From Streptomyces sp. NBC_00376 (GTDB taxonomy: Bacteria > Actinomycetota > Actinomycetes > Streptomycetales > Streptomycetaceae), in contig NZ_CP107962.1 in NCBI RefSeq assembly GCF_036077095.1, forward strand, positions 124,001 to 188,000: a stretch of DNA of 64,000 nucleotides, given 5' to 3'. Positions 14,838 through 28,988 of the stretch are shown here, in pieces; position 1 is the first letter of the stretch; each line of letters starts with the position of its first letter. The notes under the pieces are model-generated. The model did not search any database, was not told the origin of the DNA, and saw only the letters and a list, made by a program, of their open reading frames with translations. Both the position numbers and the translations under genes were made by a program.

Positions 14838-17004
14838 GTGGGAAGTACGAACAACCGGACCAAGCGGTACACAGAGGAGTTCAAGCGGGACGCCATCGCG
14901 CTCGTCGGCTCCACCGGCCGTACGGTCACCGAGGTCGCCCGGGATCTCGGGGTCAGCCCGGAATCCCTACGCAGCTGGTACCGCCAGGCCAAGGCGGACC
15001 GTGGCGAGGGCCGGCCCGGCGAGCTGACCAGTGCCGAGCGTGAGGAGCTCAAGCGACTGCGCAGGCAGAACGCCGAGCAGGCCAAGACGATCGAGGTGCT
15101 GCGAAAAGCCGCGGTCTTCGTGCGTCCTGAACGGAAAGGGGCTGCCGGTGTAGGTCGGTAGCAACTGGATGATGCTGCACAGATGATGAGGGTTTTGGCC
15201 CCTCGGAGTCGCCCCTGCGGAGGGAGACTCCAAACCGCCTCCTGCCGCGTTGGCTGAAGACCGTCGTGGTGAGCGTCGGAGGAAAAGGCGTCCTTGAAAG
15301 GGCGTCAGGTGGGGATCGGGAAGGCGAGCGAGAGCGAACCACTGCTGATGCGTCGAAATGCTTGGGCGACATCGAAACCGGGGCTTGAAGGCTCCCCGGG
15401 ATGAGTCTGGCGGGTGTCCGCTTCCTGGCCAGGTGGTGTCCGGCGTGAAGGTGGCGCGAGCCCGATCTGCGGGGTCTGTGCGGAACAGGAGAAGGCGTAC
15501 GTCCATGTCGGGCGTGCGCCGGCGGACCGGCTCGTAGTAGTGGTGAAGTCCCTGTAATGGGGGCGGAGCGAAGGGGCCGGGTCGTTCGTGACTTGTTCAT
15601 TCGATCAACCGGAAGTGCTCCGGGAGGAATTGGCGTGGATGAGTTGAAAGCACCGGTCAAGCCGTTCGGTATACCGAAGCTGCTGGTGATGGAGGCTTGG
15701 GAGAAGGTCAGGGCGTACAAGGGCGCGCCGGGCGTGGACGCGGTGGCTATCGAGGAGTTCGAGGAGGATCTGCGGGGAAACCTGTACAAGATCTGGAACC
15801 GGATGTCCTCGGGCTGCTACTTCCCGCCGCCGGTGCGCATGGTGGAGATCCCGAAGCCGCAGGGCGGCATCAGGGTCCTCGGAGTGCCGACTGTGGGCGA
15901 CCGTGTCGCGCAGACGGTGGTGGCGATGGTGCTGGAGAAGAGGGTCGAGCCGATCTTCCATCCGGACTCCTACGGCTACCGCCCAGGGCGGGGAGCGACC
16001 GACGCGGTGGGCACGTGCCGGGAGCGGTGCTGGAAGTACGACTGGGTGGTCGATCTCGACATCAAGGCGTTCTTCGACTCGGTGCCGTGGGACTTGATGC
16101 TCAAGGCGGTGGGCTCGGTCTGTGAGCTCCCCTGGGTCCTGTTGTATGTCAAGCGGTGGCTTGCTGCCCCGCTGCAACATGCGGACGGTGTGCTGATCGA
16201 GCGCGCCAAGGGCACCCCGCAGGGATCAGCGGTATCTCCCGTCCTGGCGAACCTGTTCATGCACTACGCGTTCGACATGTGGTTGAACCGGGCCTTCCCG
16301 GACGTCCGCTTCGAACGGTATGCCGACGACGCGGTCATCCACTGCCGCAGTCTCGCCGAGGCGAGAGCGGTGCTGGCCGCGCTGGATGCGCGCATGGATT
16401 CGGTCGGCCTTCAACTACACCCCTACAAGACGCAGATCGTCTACTGCCGGGACGCGAACCGCAAGAGTTCTTTCGAGCACACGAGGTTCACGTTCCTGGG
16501 CTACGACTTCCGCGAGCGCACCGTGGACGGGCGGAAAGGACTGTTCCGGAGTTTCTCTCCGGCGGTCTCGGACAAGGCCCTGAAGCGGATGGGCGAGGTG
16601 GTGCGTTCCTGGCGCCTGCACCGGTGGGTGCAGGGCGAGGCCCGAGACCTCGCGGACTGGATCAATCCGGTCGTGCGGGGATGGATGCAGTACTACGGGG
16701 CCTACAACAGGTCGGCCCTCTATCCCCTCCTGAAACGGATCAACGCCTACGTGGTCCGGTGGCTGCGCGGGAAGTACCGGAGGCTGCGGCGAAGCTGGTC
16801 GGCGACCTTCCGTGCGTGGTGGTCCGGGGTTGATCGACACCCCCGGCTTCTCGCGCACTGGGTCTGGGTGACCGAGCCCGCCCGGGTCTGGTGACCAGGA
16901 CGACAAGAGCCGTATGACCGGAGACGGTCACGTACGGATCTGTGGGAGCCCGGGGGCGAAATCCCCCCGGGCCACCCGACTTCGCGAAGGAGAGCGACCG
17001 GTGA
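14838..17004 (+). CDS. IS3 OrfA, split by a group II intron
   Basis: Exon 1 is 14838-15119, exon 2 is 16981-17004. Joined, they give 101 residues ending KAAVFFAKESDR and stop, exactly the expected OrfA tail. Exon 1 holds the HTH (RYTEEFKRDAIALV ... TVTEVARDLGVSPESLRSWY) and a leucine-zipper-like helix (REELKRLRRQNAEQAKTIEV). Without splicing, the frame runs into the intron and ends at 15161. GTG 14838 is the start. The splice point falls between two Phe codons. Confidence 0.88.
15120..16980 (+). mobile_element. Complete group II intron (bacterial class C-like)
   Basis: The 1,861-base intron begins with the canonical GTGCG at 15120 and ends with CCCGAC at 16980. Domain V is at about 16905-16945 (GAGCCGTATGACCGGAGACG and its pairing arm). 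Domain VI (stem GAGCCCGGGGG / CCCCCCGGGC with a bulged A) closes at 16980. Removing it restores the orfA reading frame without a base error. It is in the sense orientation of its host gene, so splicing would let the transposase be made. Confidence 0.92.
15635..16894 (+). CDS. ltrA: Group II intron reverse transcriptase/maturase
   Basis: GTG 15635 follows GGGAGGAA at 15622; an in-frame ATG at 15557 lies in the structured intron part. The 419-residue enzyme shows RT blocks: GAPGVDAVAIEEF, VRMVEIPKPQGGIRVLGVPT, SYGYRPGRGATDA, DLDIKAFFDSV, GTPQGSAVSPVLANL and the catalytic YADDAVI. It ends with the maturase X domain (DWINPVVRGWMQYYGAY). No HNH endonuclease domain follows, as is usual for class C introns. 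It helps splicing and retro-insertion. Confidence 0.93.
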   Translation: MDELKAPVKPFGIPKLLVMEAWEKVRAYKGAPGVDAVAIEEFEEDLRGNLYKIWNRMSSGCYFPPPVRMVEIPKPQGGIRVLGVPTVGDRVAQTVVAMVLEKRVEPIFHPDSYGYRPGRGATDAVGTCRERCWKYDWVVDLDIKAFFDSVPWDLMLKAVGSVCELPWVLLYVKRWLAAPLQHADGVLIERAKGTPQGSAVSPVLANLFMHYAFDMWLNRAFPDVRFERYADDAVIHCRSLAEARAVLAALDARMDSVGLQLHPYKTQIVYCRDANRKSSFEHTRFTFLGYDFRERTVDGRKGLFRSFSPAVSDKALKRMGEVVRSWRLHRWVQGEARDLADWINPVVRGWMQYYGAYNRSALYPLLKRINAYVVRWLRGKYRRLRRSWSATFRAWWSGVDRHPRLLAHWVWVTEPARVW

Positions 17005-17888
17005 ACGAGATATTCGCGTTCATCGAGGCGGAGAAGACCACCCACAACATCGCTTGGCTGTGTCGGCTGCTGAACGTGGCCCGCTCCTCCTTCTATGCCT
17101 GGCGGGCCGCTGCGAAGGACCGTGCTGCACGTCGGGCTGGCGATGAGGCCCTGGCCCACGAGATCACCGTCATCCACCTTGCGTCCCGCCACACCTACGG
17201 CGTCCCGCGTATTCACGCCGAACTGCGGCGCCTGGGACGGCGCGTGAACCGCAAGCGCATTGCCCGTCTGATGCGCGAACGTGGCATCCAGGGCGCCCAC
17301 CGGCGCCGCCGGCGTTCGCTGACCCGGCCGGACAAGAAGGCCAGGCCGGCCCCGGATCTGATCGGCCGCGACTTTCACGCGGAGCGGCCGGGCACGAAAC
17401 TGGTCGGGGACATCACTTTCCTCCCCACGGCCGAGGGCTGGCTCTACCTCGCGTGCTGGCTGGACCTGGCCACCCGCGAGGTCGTCGGCTACGCGATGGC
17501 CGACCACCACCGTGCTTCCCTGGTCGTCGACGCGCTGCGGATGGCTCACTGCCGCGGCGACCTGCAGCCCGGATGTGTTGCGCATTCGGATCGCGGCAGC
17601 GAATACACGTCAGACCAATTCCGGCGAGAGATACGGGAGTTGGGCCTGCAGCAGAGCTGCGGCCGCACCGGATCATGCTTCGACAACGCCGCCGCGGAAA
17701 GCTTCTGGGCTCTGCTCAAAGAAGAGATCGGCACCCGCACCTGGCCCGACCGGGCCACCGCGCGCGCCGACGTCTTCGCCTTCGTCGAGACCTTCTACAA
17801 CCGCCGCCGATTGCGCAAACACAAGGTCCTCGGCTACCTCACCCCGACCGAGACCCGGCAGCACCAACAACAAGCCCTCGCGGCATAA
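17001..17888 (+). CDS. IS3 OrfB transposase
   Basis: GTG 17001 overlaps the OrfA stop. The 295-residue DDE integrase-like protein has HTH_21 (HTYGVPRIHAELRRLGRRVN), first Asp in LVGDITFLPT, second Asp in AHSDRGSEYTSDQF and Glu in CFDNAAAESFWALLKEE. It is full length without errors. Confidence 0.92.
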   Translation: MNEIFAFIEAEKTTHNIAWLCRLLNVARSSFYAWRAAAKDRAARRAGDEALAHEITVIHLASRHTYGVPRIHAELRRLGRRVNRKRIARLMRERGIQGAHRRRRRSLTRPDKKARPAPDLIGRDFHAERPGTKLVGDITFLPTAEGWLYLACWLDLATREVVGYAMADHHRASLVVDALRMAHCRGDLQPGCVAHSDRGSEYTSDQFRREIRELGLQQSCGRTGSCFDNAAAESFWALLKEEIGTRTWPDRATARADVFAFVETFYNRRRLRKHKVLGYLTPTETRQHQQQALAA

Positions 17889-18806: not shown

Positions 18807-19307
18807 TCAGACGGCCCCCACGGGTCCCGACGGCTCCCGTGAACTCGGCGAGCCGTTTTGCGCACGTACGGCGACTCGCACCACGCCCAGGATCCGTTCG
18901 AGGGGGAAATAGCCGAACGCCCGTGAGTCGAAGCTCGCCGACTGGTTGTCGCCCAGCAGTACGGCCATGCCGTTCGGTACCCAGTCCTCGGCCACGTCGG
19001 CGAGTGCCGGGACGCTCCGGCGCGGGACGGGGTCCCCGGGCAGGGCCACGACACGCTTGATCATCCACCGCCGCTGGGACACGAGGGACGGGGCCGCCTT
19101 CGTCGCGAGCGCCCGCTGTCTCCAGCCGCTGGTGCCGAACGGGGACTCGACGACTACCACCCTGCCGACCTTGAGCCGCGTGCCCCGGATGGCCAGCACC
19201 TGGTCACGGTCCTGGTAGGCCGGTTCCATGCTGACTCCGTTCACGGTGACGGCCACCAGACGGCGGGTGAGCGCGGCTGTGATGACCGCGGCGTGGTCAG
19301 CGATCAT
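18807..19307 (-). CDS. S26-family signal peptidase
   Basis: A 166-residue peptidase with Ser26 in NGVSMEP (box B), Lys84 in WMIKRVVALPGD (box D) and GDNQSASFDSRAFG (box E). It has no obvious N-terminal transmembrane helix, unlike LepB, so it may work in complex with the exporter. ATG 19307 overlaps the ABC transporter stop (ATGA). As the last intact gene of the peptide operon, its likely substrate is the eight-Cys peptide, which has an A-S-A cleavage-like site. Confidence 0.88.
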   Translation of the reverse strand: MIADHAAVITAALTRRLVAVTVNGVSMEPAYQDRDQVLAIRGTRLKVGRVVVVESPFGTSGWRQRALATKAAPSLVSQRRWMIKRVVALPGDPVPRRSVPALADVAEDWVPNGMAVLLGDNQSASFDSRAFGYFPLERILGVVRVAVRAQNGSPSSREPSGPVGAV

Positions 19308-21226
19308 CGTCCGGCCGCCGCTTCCACCGGGTCGGCCGGGCCGACGGTGCCCGGGCCATGCTCGTCGTCCGTGTACCCGTCGGCCTGGAGGGCGAACAGG
19401 CGTGCGTACTCGCCCCCAGACCCGAGCAGTTCGCGGTGGCTTCCTTCCTCCTTTACCTGCCCGTCGCCGAGTACGGCGATCCGGTGCGCGTCGCGCACGG
19501 CGCTGAGCCGGTGTGAGATCAACAAGCTGGTGCGGTCTGCCCGGTGGCGGCGGATCGAGAGGTGGATCTCGTGCTCCGCCTCGGCGTCCAGTCCTGCGGA
19601 GGGTTCGTCGAGGATCATCAGGTCGCGTCCTTCGCGGATGAAGGCCCGGGCCAGTGCCAGGCGCTGGTGCTGGCCGCCCGAAAGCAGCGTTCCTGGCCGG
19701 TGTTCCTCTGCGGGAGCGTCGTGGTGGAAGGTGCGCGAGAGCATCGTGTCGTACCCCTGGGGCAGTTGGACGAGCTTCTCGTGCATGCCCGCCTTGGCCG
19801 CCGCGGCCTCGATCCGGTCGCGTTCCTCCAGCAGCCGCAGGTCACCGAGTCCGATGTTCTCGGCAGCGGTCATGTCGTAGTGCTGGAAGTCCTGGAAGAG
19901 CGTGCTCATCCGTGCGCGCAGCTCCACCGGATCGGCGTCGCGCAGGTCGACTCCGTCCCACAGCACGGCGCCGTGCGTGGGATCGTAGAAGCGGCACAGC
20001 AGCTTGACGAACGTGGACTTGCCGGCACCGTTCAGGCCGACCAGGGCCAGGGAACCACCGTGCGGGATGAACAGGTTCAGGCCACGCAGCACCCAGTCAT
20101 GGTCCGGGGCGTAGCGGAACCAGACGTCGCGCAGTTCGATTCCGTGTCGCAGGGGTGTCAGCGGCACCGGCTCAGCGGCCACGGGAAGGTCGGGTTCGGC
20201 CTCGACGACCTCCAGGTAGTGGTCGAACATGAGCAGCGCGCGCTGGGACGCCGCGAGCTGGATCAACAGGCTGCCGAGCGAGCCCTGCACACCATCGACC
20301 GCCGCCACGAACATCGTGACCCCGCCGACCGTGAGGTCGCCGGTGTGGGCTGCGAACACCGCCCACACCAGACCGGCTCCGGAGACGAGGCAGGACAGCA
20401 CTTCCAGGACGCTCTGCACTTTGGTCTGGCGTGCGTCCACGGACTGGGTGACGGCGTTGGCCGCCCGCCGCTCGGCTAGCACCCGCGACCGCAGGAAGTC
20501 ACCGATCGCGAAGAGCCGGATCTCCTTCGCCGCGGTGGGTGCGGCGATCAACCGGGCGTAGAAGTCCTCCCTGCGCTCGATCCTGCCCACTTCGAGCACG
20601 GCACGGGCCTGGTGCCGGGACAGGGCGAGCTGGGCCACGAGCGACGGCACGCCCGCCGCGAGAACGACGAGCGCCATCACCGGGTTGAGCGCCACCAGGG
20701 ACACCATAAACCCCGTGACGGTCAGCAGGGAGCGGCCCGCGGACAGCGCCGCGTCCGCGAGCTGGCCCGCGACCGTCCTGCCCACGTCCTGGGCCACTCG
20801 CAGGCGGTCCAGGAAGGCCGGATCCTCCAGCCGTCCCAGGCCTGGGTGGCGGCCCACCGCAGTGAAGAGCCGGTCCTGGGCTAGCAGCCCCACCTCACGG
20901 TCCACCACCCCCCGCAGATAGCGGGCGGCCAGCGGGCCGATGCCCACGATGATGGCCGCCAGCACGTAACCGAGTGCGGGGATGAGTAGCGTCCGCAGAT
21001 CCGCGTCGTGCGTCAGTCCGTCGATCAGGAGCTTCGTCATCCACGCGATCAGCACCGGTACCAGGCCGGACGTGAGGGTGAGCGTCGCGTAACCGGCCGA
21101 GGCCCAGGGCGCCGCAGTGGCACACAGGACGACGGCGGCGGTGACGCGCCGGCGCGCGGAGCGTGTATGCCCGGTCCCGGTCCCGATCTCCGAGGAAGCC
21201 GGTACGCGTCGGCGGAGCGATCTCAC
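19304..21226 (-). CDS. ABC transporter, fused permease-ATPase, for peptide export
   Basis: GTG 21226 overlaps the stop of the upstream thioredoxin-like gene. The 640-residue half-transporter has a six-helix type I exporter domain (about residues 25-330) and an ATPase domain with Walker A GLNGAGKSTFVKLL, signature LLSGGQHQRLALARAF, Walker B LMILDEPSAGLD and H-loop LISHRL. There is no N-terminal C39 peptidase domain, so leader removal must be done by another protein. The adjacent S26 peptidase is the obvious one. The frame extends to 21517, but that part overlaps the upstream gene. Confidence 0.92.
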   Translation of the reverse strand: MRSLRRRVPASSEIGTGTGHTRSARRRVTAAVVLCATAAPWASAGYATLTLTSGLVPVLIAWMTKLLIDGLTHDADLRTLLIPALGYVLAAIIVGIGPLAARYLRGVVDREVGLLAQDRLFTAVGRHPGLGRLEDPAFLDRLRVAQDVGRTVAGQLADAALSAGRSLLTVTGFMVSLVALNPVMALVVLAAGVPSLVAQLALSRHQARAVLEVGRIERREDFYARLIAAPTAAKEIRLFAIGDFLRSRVLAERRAANAVTQSVDARQTKVQSVLEVLSCLVSGAGLVWAVFAAHTGDLTVGGVTMFVAAVDGVQGSLGSLLIQLAASQRALLMFDHYLEVVEAEPDLPVAAEPVPLTPLRHGIELRDVWFRYAPDHDWVLRGLNLFIPHGGSLALVGLNGAGKSTFVKLLCRFYDPTHGAVLWDGVDLRDADPVELRARMSTLFQDFQHYDMTAAENIGLGDLRLLEERDRIEAAAAKAGMHEKLVQLPQGYDTMLSRTFHHDAPAEEHRPGTLLSGGQHQRLALARAFIREGRDLMILDEPSAGLDAEAEHEIHLSIRRHRADRTSLLISHRLSAVRDAHRIAVLGDGQVKEEGSHRELLGSGGEYARLFALQADGYTDDEHGPGTVGPADPVEAAAGR

Positions 21227-21780
21227 CGGGCCGGCGCTGGTACGTCGAGGGCGATGTTGTCGGCGGTGACGATGGGGCGGCCGTGCTCGGGGCTGGGCGA
21301 GACGACCAGCACGGCAGGGAATCCCTGGAGGTCGAAGGCCTTGCTCATCTCCCCCTTCTCGGTGCTGGACTCGCGTACCACCCGGGCCACCGGACGCAGC
21401 CGCTCCAGCATGTCGGCGGCCTCCTCCGGCTCGCCCACGACGACGGCGAGAACCTTGTCCCGGCCGCCGGGGAACGAAGGGGCGAAGCCGACGAATTTCG
21501 GCAGCTTCTCCTGGCACGGGCGGCAGCTCGGCGAGAAGAAGGCGACGAGAGTGTCGCCGTGCCGCAGACTCGCATCGTCCACCGGCTCGGCGTCCAGGGT
21601 GAGGGTGATGAACTCGCCGATCTCGTCGCCCATGCCGACCGAGACGGGCGGGCTAGAGCTGCCGTCGCGGTTGAGGATCTCGGCTTGGTCCCGCAGGCGC
21701 TTGATGATGCCGAGGCTCAGCACGAGGTTGAGGATGCACAATGCCCCGACGAAGACGAGGGCGGCGATCATGAGGGGCAC
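21223..21780 (-). CDS. MauD/TlpA-like membrane-anchored thioredoxin
   Basis: The start is GTG 21780 behind AGGAGAA. The 185-residue protein has an N-terminal anchor (about residues 3-25, LMIAALVFVGALCILNLVLS). A thioredoxin-fold domain outside follows, with the redox motif CRPC at residues 86-89 (FFSPSCRPCQEKLP) and a cis-Pro GFPAVLVV. MauD, the homologue in methylamine dehydrogenase operons, helps form the disulfides of the small subunit. Here it sits between a MauE-like protein and the exporter. Confidence 0.88.
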   Translation of the reverse strand: MPLMIAALVFVGALCILNLVLSLGIIKRLRDQAEILNRDGSSSPPVSVGMGDEIGEFITLTLDAEPVDDASLRHGDTLVAFFSPSCRPCQEKLPKFVGFAPSFPGGRDKVLAVVVGEPEEAADMLERLRPVARVVRESSTEKGEMSKAFDLQGFPAVLVVSPSPEHGRPIVTADNIALDVPAPAR

Positions 21781-22357
21781 GGTGTTTCTCCTGTCGGATG
21801 GTGGTGGGCATGGTGGCGGGCGACGCGGCGGTGCCCGTACCTGGCAAAAAGAGCTCCACAAGTTCGTCGAGCACGGTGACGAGTGCGCCGCACACGAGCC
21901 CGACCACGACTGTCAGGGTGACTGCGCCGGTGGTACCGCCGGAGCCCGGACCGACCAGGGCCGCGACACCGGCCGGGACGGCCAGTGCCAGGTTGCGTAC
22001 CGCCTGCCAGGCGCTGACGGGTGTCGCAGAAGCCCCGAAGCAGCGGCAGGCCATGGCCTGACCCCGCCGTACGGCGAACGCGATACCGACAGCGAAGGCG
22101 AGCAGCAGACCCGCCGCGAGCCAGGCGCCGTACCGGAACGCCCCCGGCAGTGGCGCGATCAGCAGCCCGCATACGGCGAACTCCAGGGCCACCACAGCGG
22201 GAGCCAGCAGCCTGCGCGCCCCGGGCACGGGGGCCAGTGCCTCGACCGCCGCGGCGAAGTCGGCGAAGGACTGGCGGCCACGGACCTTGCTCACCGCGGA
22301 TACCAGGAAGACCAGACCGATCAGACACCTGATCCAGGTCGAGAGATAAGGCTCCAC
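21653..22357 (-). CDS. MauE/DoxX-like redox membrane protein
   Basis: GTG 22357 follows GGAGG. The 234-residue frame has four hydrophobic helices (about 10-24, 52-72, 76-97, 115-135, plus one near 150-170). A conserved-looking Cys pair CRCFG lies at 104-106, as in MauE proteins, which pass redox equivalents to MauD. The last 40 or so residues (after TMPTTIRQEK) are Arg/Pro-rich and overlap the start of the MauD-like gene by 128 bases. The true C-terminus may be shorter in relatives, or a frameshift has extended it. Confidence 0.82.
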   Translation of the reverse strand: MEPYLSTWIRCLIGLVFLVSAVSKVRGRQSFADFAAAVEALAPVPGARRLLAPAVVALEFAVCGLLIAPLPGAFRYGAWLAAGLLLAFAVGIAFAVRRGQAMACRCFGASATPVSAWQAVRNLALAVPAGVAALVGPGSGGTTGAVTLTVVVGLVCGALVTVLDELVELFLPGTGTAASPATMPTTIRQEKHRAPHDRRPRLRRGIVHPQPRAEPRHHQAPAGPSRDPQPRRQL

Positions 22358-22441
22358 GATCCTCCAGAGCTGCTAGGTCGAGTGGGCTGGCGCATCCGGC
22401 CTGCGCAGGGGGCCTTCGCCCCGCCCGGACGCTGTGGAGCA

Positions 22442-22467
22442 GGGCCCGGCGCCGACGCCCCGGGCCC
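22442..22467 (-). terminator. Hairpin between peptide gene and mauE-like gene
   Basis: Arms GGGCCCGG (22442-22449) and CCGGGCCC (22460-22467) pair perfectly. The hairpin lies just after the peptide stop at 22479 when read on the minus strand. There is no T-run. It could act as a partial terminator or mRNA 3' stabiliser, giving much peptide and less of the enzymes. Confidence 0.5.
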
Positions 22468-22478
22468 CACGAGCACGG

Positions 22479-22688
22479 TCAGCAGTAGCAGTTCAGGTAA
22501 CCGCCGTCGGTGCCACAGCACGGAGCGTTGTAGCGGCACCAGGTGTTCACGTTCGGGTAACGGTTGGCCACGTTGCACTGCCAGCACGCGTTCCAGCAGC
22601 CCTGCGGCCCGACCTGCGCCGAAGCGGAAATCTTGGGCACAAATCGCTCGAGCAGGGCCTGCCCTGCGGATTCCAGCATGCGAAGCAT
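22479..22688 (-). CDS. Eight-cysteine exported peptide precursor
   Basis: ATG 22688 has a good site (GGGAGGAGAG) before it. The 69-residue product has a leader-like first part (residues 1-24, an amphipathic rather than strongly hydrophobic helix, ending I-S-A-S-A). The second part is rich in Cys, Trp, Tyr and Asn, with Cys at 31, 35, 38, 51, 57, 58, 67 and 69 and ending N-C-Y-C. The A-S-A at 22-24 looks like a signal peptidase site, which would leave a 45-residue peptide beginning with Gln25. Eight Cys allow four disulfides. I do not recognise the family. The neighbours supply oxidation, export and cleavage functions. Confidence 0.8.
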   Translation of the reverse strand: MLRMLESAGQALLERFVPKISASAQVGPQGCWNACWQCNVANRYPNVNTWCRYNAPCCGTDGGYLNCYC

Positions 22689-22715
22689 GTCACTCTCCTC
22701 CCTAGGTCAATCGGC

Positions 22716-22729
22716 CCGACGTTCGTCGG
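22716..22729. promoter_or_regulatory. Dyad upstream of the peptide gene
   Basis: CCGACGTTCGTCGG is a perfect 6-base dyad with a two-base centre. It lies 28-41 bases before the peptide start codon, between it and the AraC-type gene. This position suits an operator or a 5' UTR element. A second imperfect inverted repeat (GAAAATC ... GATTTTTTC) lies at about 22770-22797 and could end the AraC transcript. Confidence 0.4.
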
Positions 22730-22872
22730 ATGAGCGACCTTGGCATTCGGTCGGTCGGCCGGTATTGAAGAAAATCGACATTGGATTTTTTCGACATGCA
22801 CGGCAGGTACGGGACGCAACGCTGCAGCAGATTTCCTTCCATCCGGGGGCGAGTGGGACCGCTACGCGGGAT

Positions 22873-23805
22873 TCAGCCTTCTTGCAGAATGCTGGTAATG
22901 CGACTGGCCATCCGGTCGACATTCCCTCCCCCACTCTGATATTCGGCGAGAAAACGTAGCGGCGGGCGTCCGGTCAGCGCGGTGAACTCCCTTGTCAGAT
23001 GCGCCTGATCGCAGAACCCGCAGCTGGACACGGCCTCACCGGGACTGCGACCGGCCGTGAGCAGCGCCGCCGCGTGCTGCAAACGCAGCACGCGGGCCAG
23101 CCGTTTGGGAGTCAGCCCGAGTTGTTCTGCGAACCCGCGCTCGAGCTGGCGCTGACTCCAGACGAGACTTTCGGCCAAATCGGTGATCTTCAGGCGGCCG
23201 TGGGAACGTTCCAGCCGCTGCCAGGCCTCGACCACCCGAGCGGCCGCACGGGGGCCGTCCTCGCGGCAGCGCAGCAGGAACTGGTCGACCACGGCGAATC
23301 GGGAGGACCACCCCGAGGCCCGTGCGAGCTGCTCCGCCAAGTGATCGACCTGGGCACCGAGCAGCTCGGAGAGCTCCACCCCGGGCTCGGGCAGGTCCCC
23401 GAGGGCCACACCAAACAGCTCGAAAGCTGCCCACGGCGCGAGCATCACCTCGACGCCACGGATCCCTCCATGGTGCTCGCCCAGCGCTGGGCGCGTAGTG
23501 GGCGGGCTCAGCAGGGATACGACCGTGCGGGTCCGATGCGCCGCACCCACCGGTGAGATCCGCAGGGCTTCGCCGAAGCCGAGGACCAGGGTCGCCAGCC
23601 CGCACGGGATCCCCAGACGTCTGCGGACCGGCCCTGGCGCGAACCGGAATCCCCGGTAGCAGAGCACCCCCGGCCCCAGCGACGCATGCGGCTGCCCCAT
23701 GGCCAGCTCCCACTGCTCCTCGAAGCATCGCAGCCTCCGCCCTGCCGGGACGTGCCTGGTCAGCAGGGAGTCGGGCACCTGAGCACCCACCGTCGGCATC
23801 GACAC
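22873..23805 (-). CDS. AraC-family transcriptional regulator
   Basis: A 310-residue protein with an N-terminal sensing domain (about 1-190) and a C-terminal double HTH: KITDLAESLVWSQRQLERGF, LGLTPKRLARVLRLQHAAAL and CGFCDQAHLTREFTALTGRP. ATG 23805 or 23799 can serve as start. It lies upstream of the peptide gene on the same strand with a gap of about 180 bases, so it is the likely regulator of the peptide operon. Confidence 0.88.
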   Translation of the reverse strand: MSMPTVGAQVPDSLLTRHVPAGRRLRCFEEQWELAMGQPHASLGPGVLCYRGFRFAPGPVRRRLGIPCGLATLVLGFGEALRISPVGAAHRTRTVVSLLSPPTTRPALGEHHGGIRGVEVMLAPWAAFELFGVALGDLPEPGVELSELLGAQVDHLAEQLARASGWSSRFAVVDQFLLRCREDGPRAAARVVEAWQRLERSHGRLKITDLAESLVWSQRQLERGFAEQLGLTPKRLARVLRLQHAAALLTAGRSPGEAVSSCGFCDQAHLTREFTALTGRPPLRFLAEYQSGGGNVDRMASRITSILQEG

Positions 23806-25222: not shown

Positions 25223-26595
25223 GCGTCGTTCAGGCAGTGCATCTGGGTTCAGGAGCCGAGGCAGGAGCGCGGGTGGTCGCCGGTGGCTGACGCAGAGGCA
25301 GGCACGGCTTCCGGTGATCATGAGGTGTCGAGTCCCTGATCACCATGACGGAAGACCGTGCCTGCCCGCTCATCCTCGCTCATCCCGGGCCCTCTGGGCC
25401 AACTCACCGATGCCGCACCGACCGCCCTCGATGACCTTCCCAGCCTGGTGACCTGCCTGGCCCGGGTGCCCGATCCCCGCCGAGACCAGGGCCGACGCCA
25501 TCCGCTCGCCTTCGTCTTGTCCCTGGCCGCGTGCGCGGTCCTGGCCGGAGCGAAGTCCATGGCTGCAATCGCGGAGTGGGCAGCCGACGCCCCGCCGCAC
25601 GTCCTGGCCCGGCTCGGCGGCCCGTGCCGGGAGCCGGACCGTGGCCCCGTCGCCCCGGCCGAGGCCACTGTGCGTCGTATTCTCCAGCGCATCGACGGCA
25701 ACGCGCTGGACAGGGCCGTCGGTAGTTGGCTCGCCGGGCGCGAACGCGCCGCCGCCGGCAAGGAGGAGGACACACGCGGCCGGCCCATGCCCTCCCTCGC
25801 GGTGGACGGCAAGACCGTGCGCGGTGCCCGCCGCACCGACAGCACCCAGGTCCACCTACTCGCCGCGATGACGGGGACCGGCCTGGTCACCGCCCAGCGC
25901 GAGGTGGACGGCAAGACCAACGAGATCACCGTCTTCCAGCCCCTGCTCGCCCCGCTCGACCTGCACGGCACAGTGGTCACCTTCGACACCCTCCACTCGC
26001 AGACCGCCCACGCACGCTTCCTCGTCGAGGACAAGCACGCCCACTACATTGCGTTGATCAAGGGCAACCAGCCCACCCTGCACCGGTGGCTGAAGACCCT
26101 GCCATGGCGGGAAGTGCCACTCCTGGACAAGACCCGGGCCACCGCACACGGTCGCGACGAGATCCGCCGGATCAAGGCTGCCGCCGTCGCCGGGATCGCG
26201 TTCCCACACGCGGCGCAGGCCGTCCAGATCGTGCGCCGCCGACGAATCGTCACCACGGGCAAGATCACACTGGAACGCGTCTACGGGGTGACCGACCTGA
26301 CCGCGGAGCAGGCCGACGCAACCGAGATCGCCCGCCGCGTCCGCGACCACTGGGGCATCGAGAACAAGATCCACCACGTCAGGGACACCACGTACGCCGA
26401 GGACGCCTCCCGCGTACGCACCGGCACCGCTCCACGCGCCATGGCATCCCTGCGCAACCTGGCCATCGGTGCTCTCCGACTCGCCGGCCAGGCGAACATT
26501 GCCGCTGGACTCCGCCACCACACCCGCGACGCCAACCGTCCACTGATCACCCTCGGCATCACGTGATCAACTGGGACGCATCACCTGAACGACGC
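25223..26595 (+). mobile_element. ISAs1-family insertion sequence
   Basis: Inverted repeats GCGTCGTTCAGG (25223) and CCTGAACGACGC (ending 26595) enclose a single transposase gene. The match continues inward with mismatches (CAGTGCATC against TGATGCGTC). No clear target duplication is seen, so the outer limits may be off by a few bases. Confidence 0.75.
25358..26566 (+). CDS. ISAs1-family transposase
   Basis: GTG 25358 starts a 402-residue protein with the family N-terminal segment [20 protein letters not shown] and catalytic blocks: [35 protein letters not shown] and [19 protein letters not shown]. No internal stop or shift is visible. Confidence 0.93.
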
Positions 26596-27288: not shown

Positions 27289-27437
27289 CCGGTGATTCTC
27301 CGCTCGCCCACTGACAACGGCCGGAGAGTGACGGTGATCACCGTCAGAGCATGTGACCGGACCGTCTAGCGGTGATTCGCTCCAGCCTGGTGGCCTCGGC
27401 AAGGGCATGTCAGTGGCGCGTCCTATGGTGCGTGCTC

Positions 27438-28988
27438 ATGACACGTCGCACCCGTTTCCTGGTCAACGAGCACCCGGCCATCGCCGCCCAGTGGCATCCG
27501 GAGCTGAACGCCGACCTGGACCTGGCGCAGATCGGTCCCGGCTCTCACAAGGCTGTGTTCTGGCGGTGCGACGACGGGCACGTCTGGCAGGCCCAGGTCC
27601 ATTCCCGCGTCGCCGGGACCGGCTGCCCGCAGTGCGCCGGGTACGTGCCCCGTGGCCGGACCACGCTCAGCGAGCACTCGCCCGACTTGGTAGCAGAGTG
27701 GCACCCGCGCAACGATGCTTCACCGGACCAGTTCGGGCCCGGCTCACAGCGCAAGGTCTGGTGGCGCTGTCCGGTCGGGCACGAGTACCAAGCGCGAATA
27801 TCCAACCGCAGCCGCGGCACCGGCTGCCCGGCCTGCGCGAGGGCCGGCCGCGATGCACCGGCCAGGCGTCTGGCCGACATGCCCGAGCTGTTCGCACAGG
27901 TGGACCCCGACACCGCACCGGCCGATGTAGCGGAACTGCTGGTCAACTCCCGCGTACGGCTGGGATGGCGCTGTTCCCGGGGCCACCGCTGGGAGGCGAA
28001 GGTGAGCCACCGGGCCGTCGCCGGGTCGGGCTGCCCGGCCTGCGCCCGGAGGAAGCGTGCTCCCGCTCTTGCCGAGGCGCGGCCGGATCTGGCGGCGCAG
28101 TGGCACCCCGCGCGCAACGACGGGCTGACGGCCGAAGCTGTCACCGCCGGTTCGCATCGCCTGGTCTGGTGGAAGTGCAGCGTGTGCGCCGGCGAGTTCC
28201 GGGCCAAGGTGTTCCACCGCGTCCGTGGCGTGGCCGCGTGCCCCTTCTGCTCCGGCCGGGTGCGCTACCAGGCGCTGTCGAGCGAGAGCCCCGGGCTCGC
28301 GGCGCTGTGGCACCCGTCCCTGAACGGCGCCCTCACCCCGGCGGAGGTGACCGCGGGGGCCAACGTGCCGGTCCGGTGGCTGTGCCCCGCCGGACACGAA
28401 TCTTGGTCCGCCCAGGTGGTGCACGTGTTCATGGGCAGGCAGGGCTGCCCACGCTGCCGGAAGCGGACCAGTGTCTCCCGGCAGGAGACGGAACTGTTCG
28501 CCGAACTGCAGCTTGTTCTCACAGGCGGAGAGCAGCAGTACCCGTTGCAGACGCCGCATGGCCGCTACCGGCTCGACATGCTCTTCCCCACGGACCACGA
28601 CCATGCCGTGGTGGTGGAGTTCGACGGCTCGTACTGGCACCGCGACGCTGAGGAACGCGATCGGCTCAAGGCGGAGGCCGTAGAACACCACCGGCCCGGC
28701 TGGATGGTGGTGCGGGTGCGTGAGGAACCGCTGGCACCGACCCGGCATCGCGACGTGGTCGTGCCGTACCTGGCTGACCCGTTCACGGCCGCCAGCATCG
28801 TTGTCGAGCACCTGATGCCGCTGATGTCGTGGCCCGACGACACCCGTCAGCGTGCGCGCGCCTATCTCAAGGGCGGGCGCCGTCTGGGAGCTGCACTGGC
28901 CCAGCGTCTGATCAACGAGCGACAGCCCGCTGCTTCACCGGCCGATGACCGGCCCGCGCCCCAACCTCTCACGGAAACACGCTCGTAG
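27438..28988 (+). CDS. Multi-zinc-ribbon (DUF4379-like) protein with C-terminal nuclease domain
   Basis: ATG 27438 begins a 516-residue protein. Five repeats of about 65 residues follow the pattern HP.L..QWHP.LN ... GS...V.WRC..GH.W.A....R..G.GCP.C (for example WWRCPVGHEYQARISNRSRG, TGCPACARAG). Repeat 3 has lost part of the pattern. From about residue 350 comes a Vsr/DUF559-like nuclease: RQETELFAELQLVL, YRLDMLFPTDHDHAVVVEFD, GSYWHRDAEERDRLKAEAV. The zinc ribbons probably bind DNA. The 3' end overlaps the converging AbiJ-like gene by 20 bases. Confidence 0.85.
   Translation: MTRRTRFLVNEHPAIAAQWHPELNADLDLAQIGPGSHKAVFWRCDDGHVWQAQVHSRVAGTGCPQCAGYVPRGRTTLSEHSPDLVAEWHPRNDASPDQFGPGSQRKVWWRCPVGHEYQARISNRSRGTGCPACARAGRDAPARRLADMPELFAQVDPDTAPADVAELLVNSRVRLGWRCSRGHRWEAKVSHRAVAGSGCPACARRKRAPALAEARPDLAAQWHPARNDGLTAEAVTAGSHRLVWWKCSVCAGEFRAKVFHRVRGVAACPFCSGRVRYQALSSESPGLAALWHPSLNGALTPAEVTAGANVPVRWLCPAGHESWSAQVVHVFMGRQGCPRCRKRTSVSRQETELFAELQLVLTGGEQQYPLQTPHGRYRLDMLFPTDHDHAVVVEFDGSYWHRDAEERDRLKAEAVEHHRPGWMVVRVREEPLAPTRHRDVVVPYLADPFTAASIVVEHLMPLMSWPDDTRQRARAYLKGGRRLGAALAQRLINERQPAASPADDRPAPQPLTETRS

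Follow-up and report, generated by a model that had tools for sequence, protein, structure and literature searches.

A Streptomyces operon predicted to make a secreted, disulfide-rich peptide belongs to a family of gene clusters with mostly even cysteine numbers

INTRODUCTION

What does a bacterium make when it places a small cysteine-rich precursor beside a redox pair, an exporter, and a peptidase? The question is raised by a 64,000-nucleotide stretch of Streptomyces sp. NBC_00376 (contig NZ_CP107962.1, positions 124,001 to 188,000; hereafter the window), in which six minus-strand genes encode an AraC-type regulator, a precursor, MauE-like and MauD-like membrane proteins, an ATP-binding cassette (ABC) permease-ATPase, and an S26 peptidase. 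Judging from sequence comparisons, the operon most probably produces a secreted peptide that resembles ribosomally synthesized and posttranslationally modified peptides (RiPPs) and is modified by disulfides only; it would be exported, oxidised by MauE/MauD, and cut by the S26 peptidase. We regard this scheme as the best supported because precursor, MauE, ABC, and S26 genes co-occur in 56 of 68 loci, Cys numbers are even in 93 of 97 unique cores, the MauE and MauD motifs are retained, and Ser26/Lys84 of the peptidase is invariant. The reading of export, oxidation, and cleavage after A-S-A proposed in an earlier note on this DNA thereby gains support.

RESULTS

The gene set is conserved together with the precursor

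We searched the precursor alone against 394 genomes of the window's family, its own included, and obtained eight matches. One of them (G014; L010, L023) was rejected as spurious, with 32 residues matched and no other operon genes near. The other six genomes besides the window's own carry MauE, MauD, ABC, and S26 genes in identical order, with precursors that are 38 to 83% identical, and four more proteins show 71 to 81% identity to the window precursor. With a profile built from 12 precursors, 41 proteins were retrieved at E≤10, the window's among them, all at or below 1e-3. None of these 41 holds a Pfam domain, and where named they are called "hypothetical protein" or "Uncharacterized protein," one being also an acetyltransferase according to one source.

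The MauD-like protein offered another route. An alignment search with two peptide patterns gave 121 stretches, from which 68 loci were confirmed in named genomes. A family precursor (E≤0.01) was present in 62 of them, and in the 56 complete loci the precursor, MauE, ABC, and S26 genes lay within 6 kb; six of the 12 incomplete loci are at contig edges or on short contigs (L036, L042, L049, L054, L064, and L078). As a control, none of 1861 open reading frames (ORFs) from 49 loci of nickel superoxide dismutase (Ni-SOD) matched the precursor profile at E≤0.01. Because some of the 68 loci are strains of the first search and some profile members come from these genomes, the precursor and MauD search sets are not independent. 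The expectation of the earlier note that homologues would sit beside the same neighbors is borne out for MauE, MauD, ABC, and S26, but the AraC regulator, which it had counted in the set, has a relative in 12 of the 68 loci and is an optional part.

Genera with clusters include Streptomyces, Embleya, Micromonospora, Nonomuraea, Nocardia, Actinomadura, Thermobifida, and Amycolatopsis. In the window's family, 68 of the 394 genomes contain relatives of the MauD-like protein at E≤1e-8 (eight candidates per genome were scored, and matches were counted without whole-cluster inspection). The window's own genome holds a second cluster on its main contig (L016, 6564-11001; C1, about 3186563-3191000). 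Its eight-Cys core (P0029) differs strongly from the window's, and of the products of its two MauD-like genes one lacks the second Cys of C-x-x-C. On the 707-kb linear plasmid pF1D18A of S. clavuligerus, two tandem six-Cys precursors (L162, 6839-7331) stand ahead of MauE, MauD, ABC, and S26. Two annotated relatives have only MauE, MauD, and ABC genes between the last precursor and S26. Outside Actinomycetota, a Kofleriaceae metagenome-assembled genome (L092, 8228-11400) carries the same genes in a different order with a short five-Cys precursor, which may be a binning error.

A constant leader precedes a variable core with a mostly even number of cysteines

Among 36 chosen leaders the consensus is xxxLExLGDRLLxRxVPxxxAxA, with P, A, and A invariant; leaders end in A-x-A, which is A-S-A in the window. 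The hydropathy maximum on a 17-residue scale is 0.52 for the window leader and 1.41 across the precursor family, so that, by the hydropathy yardstick for Sec signal peptides, the leader would be insufficiently hydrophobic for Sec. Pooled ratios of nonsynonymous to synonymous differences (pN/pS), taken over pairs among five close relatives, are 0.07 for the leader and 0.64 for the core. Synteny and this coding constraint rule out that the precursor is a chance small ORF. Cores are 23 to 59 residues long, carry a net charge of 0 to +2 in 79 of 97 cases, and contain 21% Cys on average, with CxC and CC motifs. The traits of a RiPP system are thus present: conserved leader, variable core, and clustered maturation and export genes. 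For the window core, the calculated monoisotopic mass is 5055.98 with four disulfides and 5038.95 if pyroglutamate forms too; with free thiols it would be 5064.04.

The 97 unique cores were merged from 108 rows, after P0019, a duplicate with a truncated start, had been skipped. The even counts are four Cys in one core, six in 15, eight in 45, ten in 30, and twelve in two. To handle kinship, single-linkage clustering at 50% identity sorted the cores into 26 clusters, one of which holds 69 of the 97 cores; the majority is even in 24 of the 26 (binomial p 5e-6). Taking first members, 23 of the 26 clusters have an even Cys number, compared with 9 to 15 of 26 for 12 other residues. Three additional precursors beyond the 97 cores have six Cys each, and likely precursors at L073 (8608-8907, minus strand) and L083 (8672-8899, plus strand), missed by the profile and spotted by eye, stand outside the counts. 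In nine close sequences, Cys46 and Cys64 are both present in three and both missing in six, and the ten-Cys relatives gained exactly that pair. Even Cys counts and the joint gain of Cys46 and Cys64 are what full pairing into disulfides predicts. The earlier note had held that loss of the Cys pattern among homologues would speak against its reading; we found that spacing and number indeed change across the family, while parity stays.

It could be argued that the peptide is instead a ligand for metal, either released or bound to the cell, in the manner of a metallothionein or a metallophore, with MauE/MauD acting as thiol reductants that keep the Cys free. The Cys-rich cores and their CxC and CC motifs would suit such a role, even Cys numbers also fit some metal clusters, and Ni-SOD, which has a similar leader, binds nickel at an N-terminal hook (PMC3919588). 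However, the family does not keep a constant Cys spacing, unlike most metal sites, the distant Cys46 and Cys64 appear jointly, and no metal transporter or regulator is annotated adjoining the genes in two annotated relatives, the exception being a metal-binding protein of the TIGR03086 family that one of them carries about 4 kb upstream. We therefore consider a metal ligand quite unlikely and the disulfide-bonded peptide the better account of the cores.

Redox motifs and the peptidase point to a probable course of export, oxidation, and cleavage

A CxCFG-type motif is found in all 64 MauE proteins detected at the 68 loci, and C-x-x-C is present in the best MauD of every locus (58 by pattern, 10 read from printout). 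Among the cluster S26 peptidases, Ser26/Lys84 is invariant in the 21 that were aligned, and S-M-x-P occurs by pattern in 62 of 62.

The redox pair also brings to mind that the precursor could be the small subunit of a redox enzyme matured by MauE/MauD, like that of methylamine dehydrogenase: the MauE family is matched, and MauE is thought to aid formation of the beta-subunit disulfides there (PMC7794033). We hold this to be very improbable, since no dehydrogenase subunit is found among the six operon genes or annotated beside the genes in two relatives, the cores show far more variation than is expected of a subunit, and the decRiPPter authors argued likewise for their Streptomyces strains (PMC7794033).

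For the disulfide-only peptide, we infer the following course. The ribosome would make a 69-residue precursor with a charged, amphipathic leader of 24 residues, which would steer it to the dedicated ABC exporter rather than to Sec. Outside the membrane, the MauD-like protein would join the eight Cys into four disulfides, and the MauE-like membrane protein, with its CxCFG, would re-oxidise the MauD-like protein and act as the electron outlet. The S26 peptidase would then cleave after A-S-A and free a 45-residue peptide. As hypervariable cores on a constant leader favor it, an antagonistic, bacteriocin-like activity seems the likeliest role, although we propose it tentatively and put it somewhat below an even chance; a signalling peptide is less likely.

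Several observations weigh against this scheme. The pattern that split leader from core itself required [A/G]-x-A, so the P3 Ala of all 97 cores is no independent evidence for the cut site. Cys numbers are odd in four of 97 cores (five in one, seven in three), and the catalytic K-R pattern is found in just 56 of 62 cluster S26 peptidases. Gene order varies, with MauE after the ABC gene in L065, L072, L079, and L085, and in L058 the precursor and S26 genes lie on the strand opposite to MauD. S. clavuligerus carries a possible further tailoring gene, of ATP-grasp type, about 3.5 kb past S26. A conserved KRLR follows the membrane segment of MauD, so that by the positive-inside rule of membrane topology the thioredoxin domain would be cytoplasmic. 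Finally, a clear membrane helix is missing from the window S26, whose hydropathy peaks at 1.2, while nine cluster S26 peptidases in which at most 60 residues precede the catalytic Ser have a segment that reaches 2.0 or more. Topology is thus the weakest element of the scheme, and in view of the KRLR stretch and of the helix missing from the window S26 but seen in nine relatives, the order of cutting and export is proposed tentatively.

Another order would follow Ni-SOD: S26 would take off the leader while the peptide is still within the cell, and what the ABC protein exports would be the bare core. The leader resembles that of Streptomyces SodN, for which SodX is the cognate processing peptidase (PMC3919588), the 21 cluster S26 peptidases scanned all match the SodX model TIGR02754 at E≤0.01, and no clear helix is seen in the window S26. 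However, the same 21 also match signal peptidase I, the window S26 passes the cut-off of TIGR02227 (63.2 against 47) and falls below that of TIGR02754, the hydropathic segments of the nine short-N-terminus relatives are like those of membrane signal peptidases, and a hypervariable core offers an exporter little constant to recognise. It seems that leader removal before export is unlikely, and export with the leader attached remains our preferred order.

The leader resembles that of Streptomyces SodN

The SodN of the window's own genome starts with MLSRLFAPKVKVSA, followed by HCD; Cys residues are nickel ligands in Ni-SOD. Both it and the window precursor have a short leader with P-K-[VI]-x-x-S-A at its end, and in both cases an S26-type peptidase gene lies alongside. 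We built a leader weight matrix from peptide leaders only, with one optional extra residue that was allowed after the SodN leader had been seen. On this matrix, the own SodN leader scores 27.8 to 28.9 and the ten lowest family leaders 19.8 to 23.3; background maxima are 12.1 among 3619 N-termini and 19.5 among 924,561 positions of long ORFs, those holding family precursors having been set aside, and none of 20,000 shuffles reached the SodN score. Against 26,391 random [AV]xA sites, 19 of 49 actinobacterial SodN leaders (L145, from the same genome as L134, excluded) exceed the 99th percentile (3.9) and 30 do not; seven of the 49 fall within the family score range, six of them from the window's genus. 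The random maximum of 33.4 is higher than SodN, and family-precursor ORFs left in that set may explain it. An ungapped leader-profile search of the own genome, with 150 of 238 candidates scored, listed both clusters and weak others but not SodN. By these tests, the likeness of the Streptomyces SodN leader would be beyond chance, which does not establish common descent.

The peptidases give a mixed picture. The own SodX scores 79.3 on TIGR02754, and the window S26 stays below the cut-off of that model, reaching 37.6 against 63.25. In a first tree, the cluster S26 peptidases stood beside a SodX group that included Streptomyces ones (83/83), but in a larger tree they grouped with five signal peptidases and six other SodX instead (84/87). 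The one result common to both trees is that the cluster S26 peptidases are monophyletic (97/89 and 100/99).

A sober alternative is that the leaders are alike because S26-type peptidases share the same demand. It is possible, though doubtful, that leader and S26 share ancestry with the Ni-SOD pair. On this view, actinobacteria would have taken over the maturation leader of an enzyme and built on it a large class of hypervariable peptides, modified by disulfides only and served by an oxidation pair of their own in the membrane; this would parallel the NHLP and Nif11 precursors, but with cutting by a signal-peptidase-type enzyme. SodN differs from the precursors in being an enzyme, 30 of its 49 leaders do not surpass the best 1% of random sites, and the trees disagree. 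As a separate observation, the Ni-SOD leader at L155, LLERILRPRHEAHA, which scores 14.2, looks akin to the LIERILPKAEAEA leaders found in one subgroup of precursors.

Relation to described systems

The earlier note knew of no described peptide system with this exact gene set, a statement that has to be corrected: the in silico study decRiPPter (2020) lists three candidate Streptomyces families with mauE, one of them also with mauD, and a precursor of at least eight Cys in each, and it suggests a role of mauE(/mauD) in precursor modification, with no product (PMC7794033). Those families combine mauE, with or without mauD, with a transporter, a peptidase, a regulator, and the Cys-rich precursor, which are traits also of the window operon. 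S. viridosporus T7A is named there, and a family cluster was found here in S. viridosporus NRRL 2414 (L049). Judging from description and species overlap, the window family is very likely the same as these families. In its mauE section, the decRiPPter account holds no family-wide survey, parity test, or leader comparison (PMC7794033). New here are the family extent, the Cys parity evidence, the second cluster in the own genome, and the SodN-like leader. Therefore, the peptide class is uncharacterised and was probably flagged before, and it proves to be wide and strongly constrained to paired Cys.

Other systems share single features. The mau operon of methylamine dehydrogenase, described in part in PMC7794033, also places a MauE/MauD pair beside a disulfide-rich product. 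The window operon differs in having no dehydrogenase gene, a variable 23- to 59-residue core as substrate, and a MauD-like protein far below TIGR02661. NHLP and Nif11 precursors likewise combine leader, variable core, and ABC transport, but according to PMC2887384 they have a Gly-Gly cleavage motif and thiazole/oxazole or lanthionine machinery, neither of which was found in the window system. Bacterial cis-defensins are small and disulfide-rich, as here, and were chosen by signal peptide and CS-alpha-beta pattern (PMC11561630). Their Cys order C..CX3C..C..CXC was tried and rejected: it is absent from the window core and occurs in 11 of 97 family cores against a shuffled mean of 13.7. C39 double-glycine bacteriocins differ too, as there is no Gly-Gly motif ahead of the window core and, in agreement with the earlier note, no C39 domain among the eight Pfam families listed for the ABC protein. 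In the literature searched, which excluded most subscription journals, we recognised no further account of such a peptide system, and a review on the proteases that remove RiPP leaders uses none of the terms S26, signal peptidase, disulfide, and MauE (PMC10885120).

If the scheme is true, it describes a common actinobacterial peptide class in which a four-gene secretion and oxidation kit serves a near-freely changing core with mostly 4 to 12 Cys. Such a kit would be useful for producing disulfide-rich peptides, and the MauE/MauD pair would have a testable role beyond methylamine dehydrogenase.

Genes of the operon and their surroundings

Coordinates are collected in Table 1. The six minus-strand genes, Cys positions, overlaps, and Ser26/Lys84 pair read by the earlier note were all confirmed by ORFs, Pfam, and alignment.

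Table 1. Features of the operon, in window coordinates
Feature	Position	Strand	Basis
AraC-type regulator gene	22873..23805	-	HTH_18 61.3 bits (Pfam)
Precursor peptide gene, 69 aa	22479..22688	-	ORF; Cys 31, 35, 38, 51, 57, 58, 67, 69
Precursor leader, 24 residues, MLRMLESAGQALLERFVPKISASA	22617..22688	-	Conserved across precursor family; appears not Sec-like
Precursor core, 45 residues, 8 Cys	22482..22616	-	
MauE-like membrane protein with CRCFG	21653..22357	-	PF07291 88.1 bits, cut-off 27
MauD-like membrane-anchored thioredoxin-fold protein with CRPC	21223..21780	-	Alignment; PDB profile matches
ABC permease-ATPase, 640 aa	19304..21226	-	Pfam ABC_membrane, ABC_tran
S26 peptidase, Ser26/Lys84	18807..19307	-	PF10502 Peptidase_S26 66.1 bits

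The MauD-like gene starts with GTG, has AGGAG upstream, and overlaps the MauE-like gene by 128 bases; its overlap with the ABC gene is GTGA, and that of the ABC and S26 genes is ATGA. "MauD-like" is a loose name, because no thioredoxin-family cut-off is reached (AhpC-TSA 22.4 against 26; TIGR02661 MauD 11.1 against 188.6). Its C-x-x-C is clear in the stretch FFSPSCRPC, and a search of PDB with its profile finds chains of ResA, StoA, and PDI. The ABC protein matches MsbA-type and NHLP-exporter NCBIfam models with scores under their cut-offs. The window precursor belongs to no Pfam or NCBIfam family at E≤1, other precursors (nine scanned with Pfam, the same nine and P0016 with NCBIfam) gave matches below cut-off only, and the precursor profile found no relative in PDB at E≤10. 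A strong G+C stem between precursor and mauE (22340-22500, minus strand) was rejected as an attenuator hairpin, its folding being no better than that of shuffles (z 0.13); the stem could thin out downstream transcription.

The contig that holds the operon is 429 kb long and one of three in the genome. It is likely a plasmid, because 27 plasmid records hold MauD-like relatives. Transposases flank the operon (rve-type, 16914-17888; DDE, 25358-26566), which suggests that the region is mobile. On the plus strand, group II intron matches at 15188-15310 and 16905-16980 (Rfam RF01999, RF00029) enclose a reverse transcriptase/maturase ORF at 15557-16894. Elsewhere, the product of the plus-strand gene at 27372-28988 has 538 residues; it contains five DUF4379 zinc-finger stretches and, at its end, an endonuclease-like MTES_1575 match that stays below threshold.

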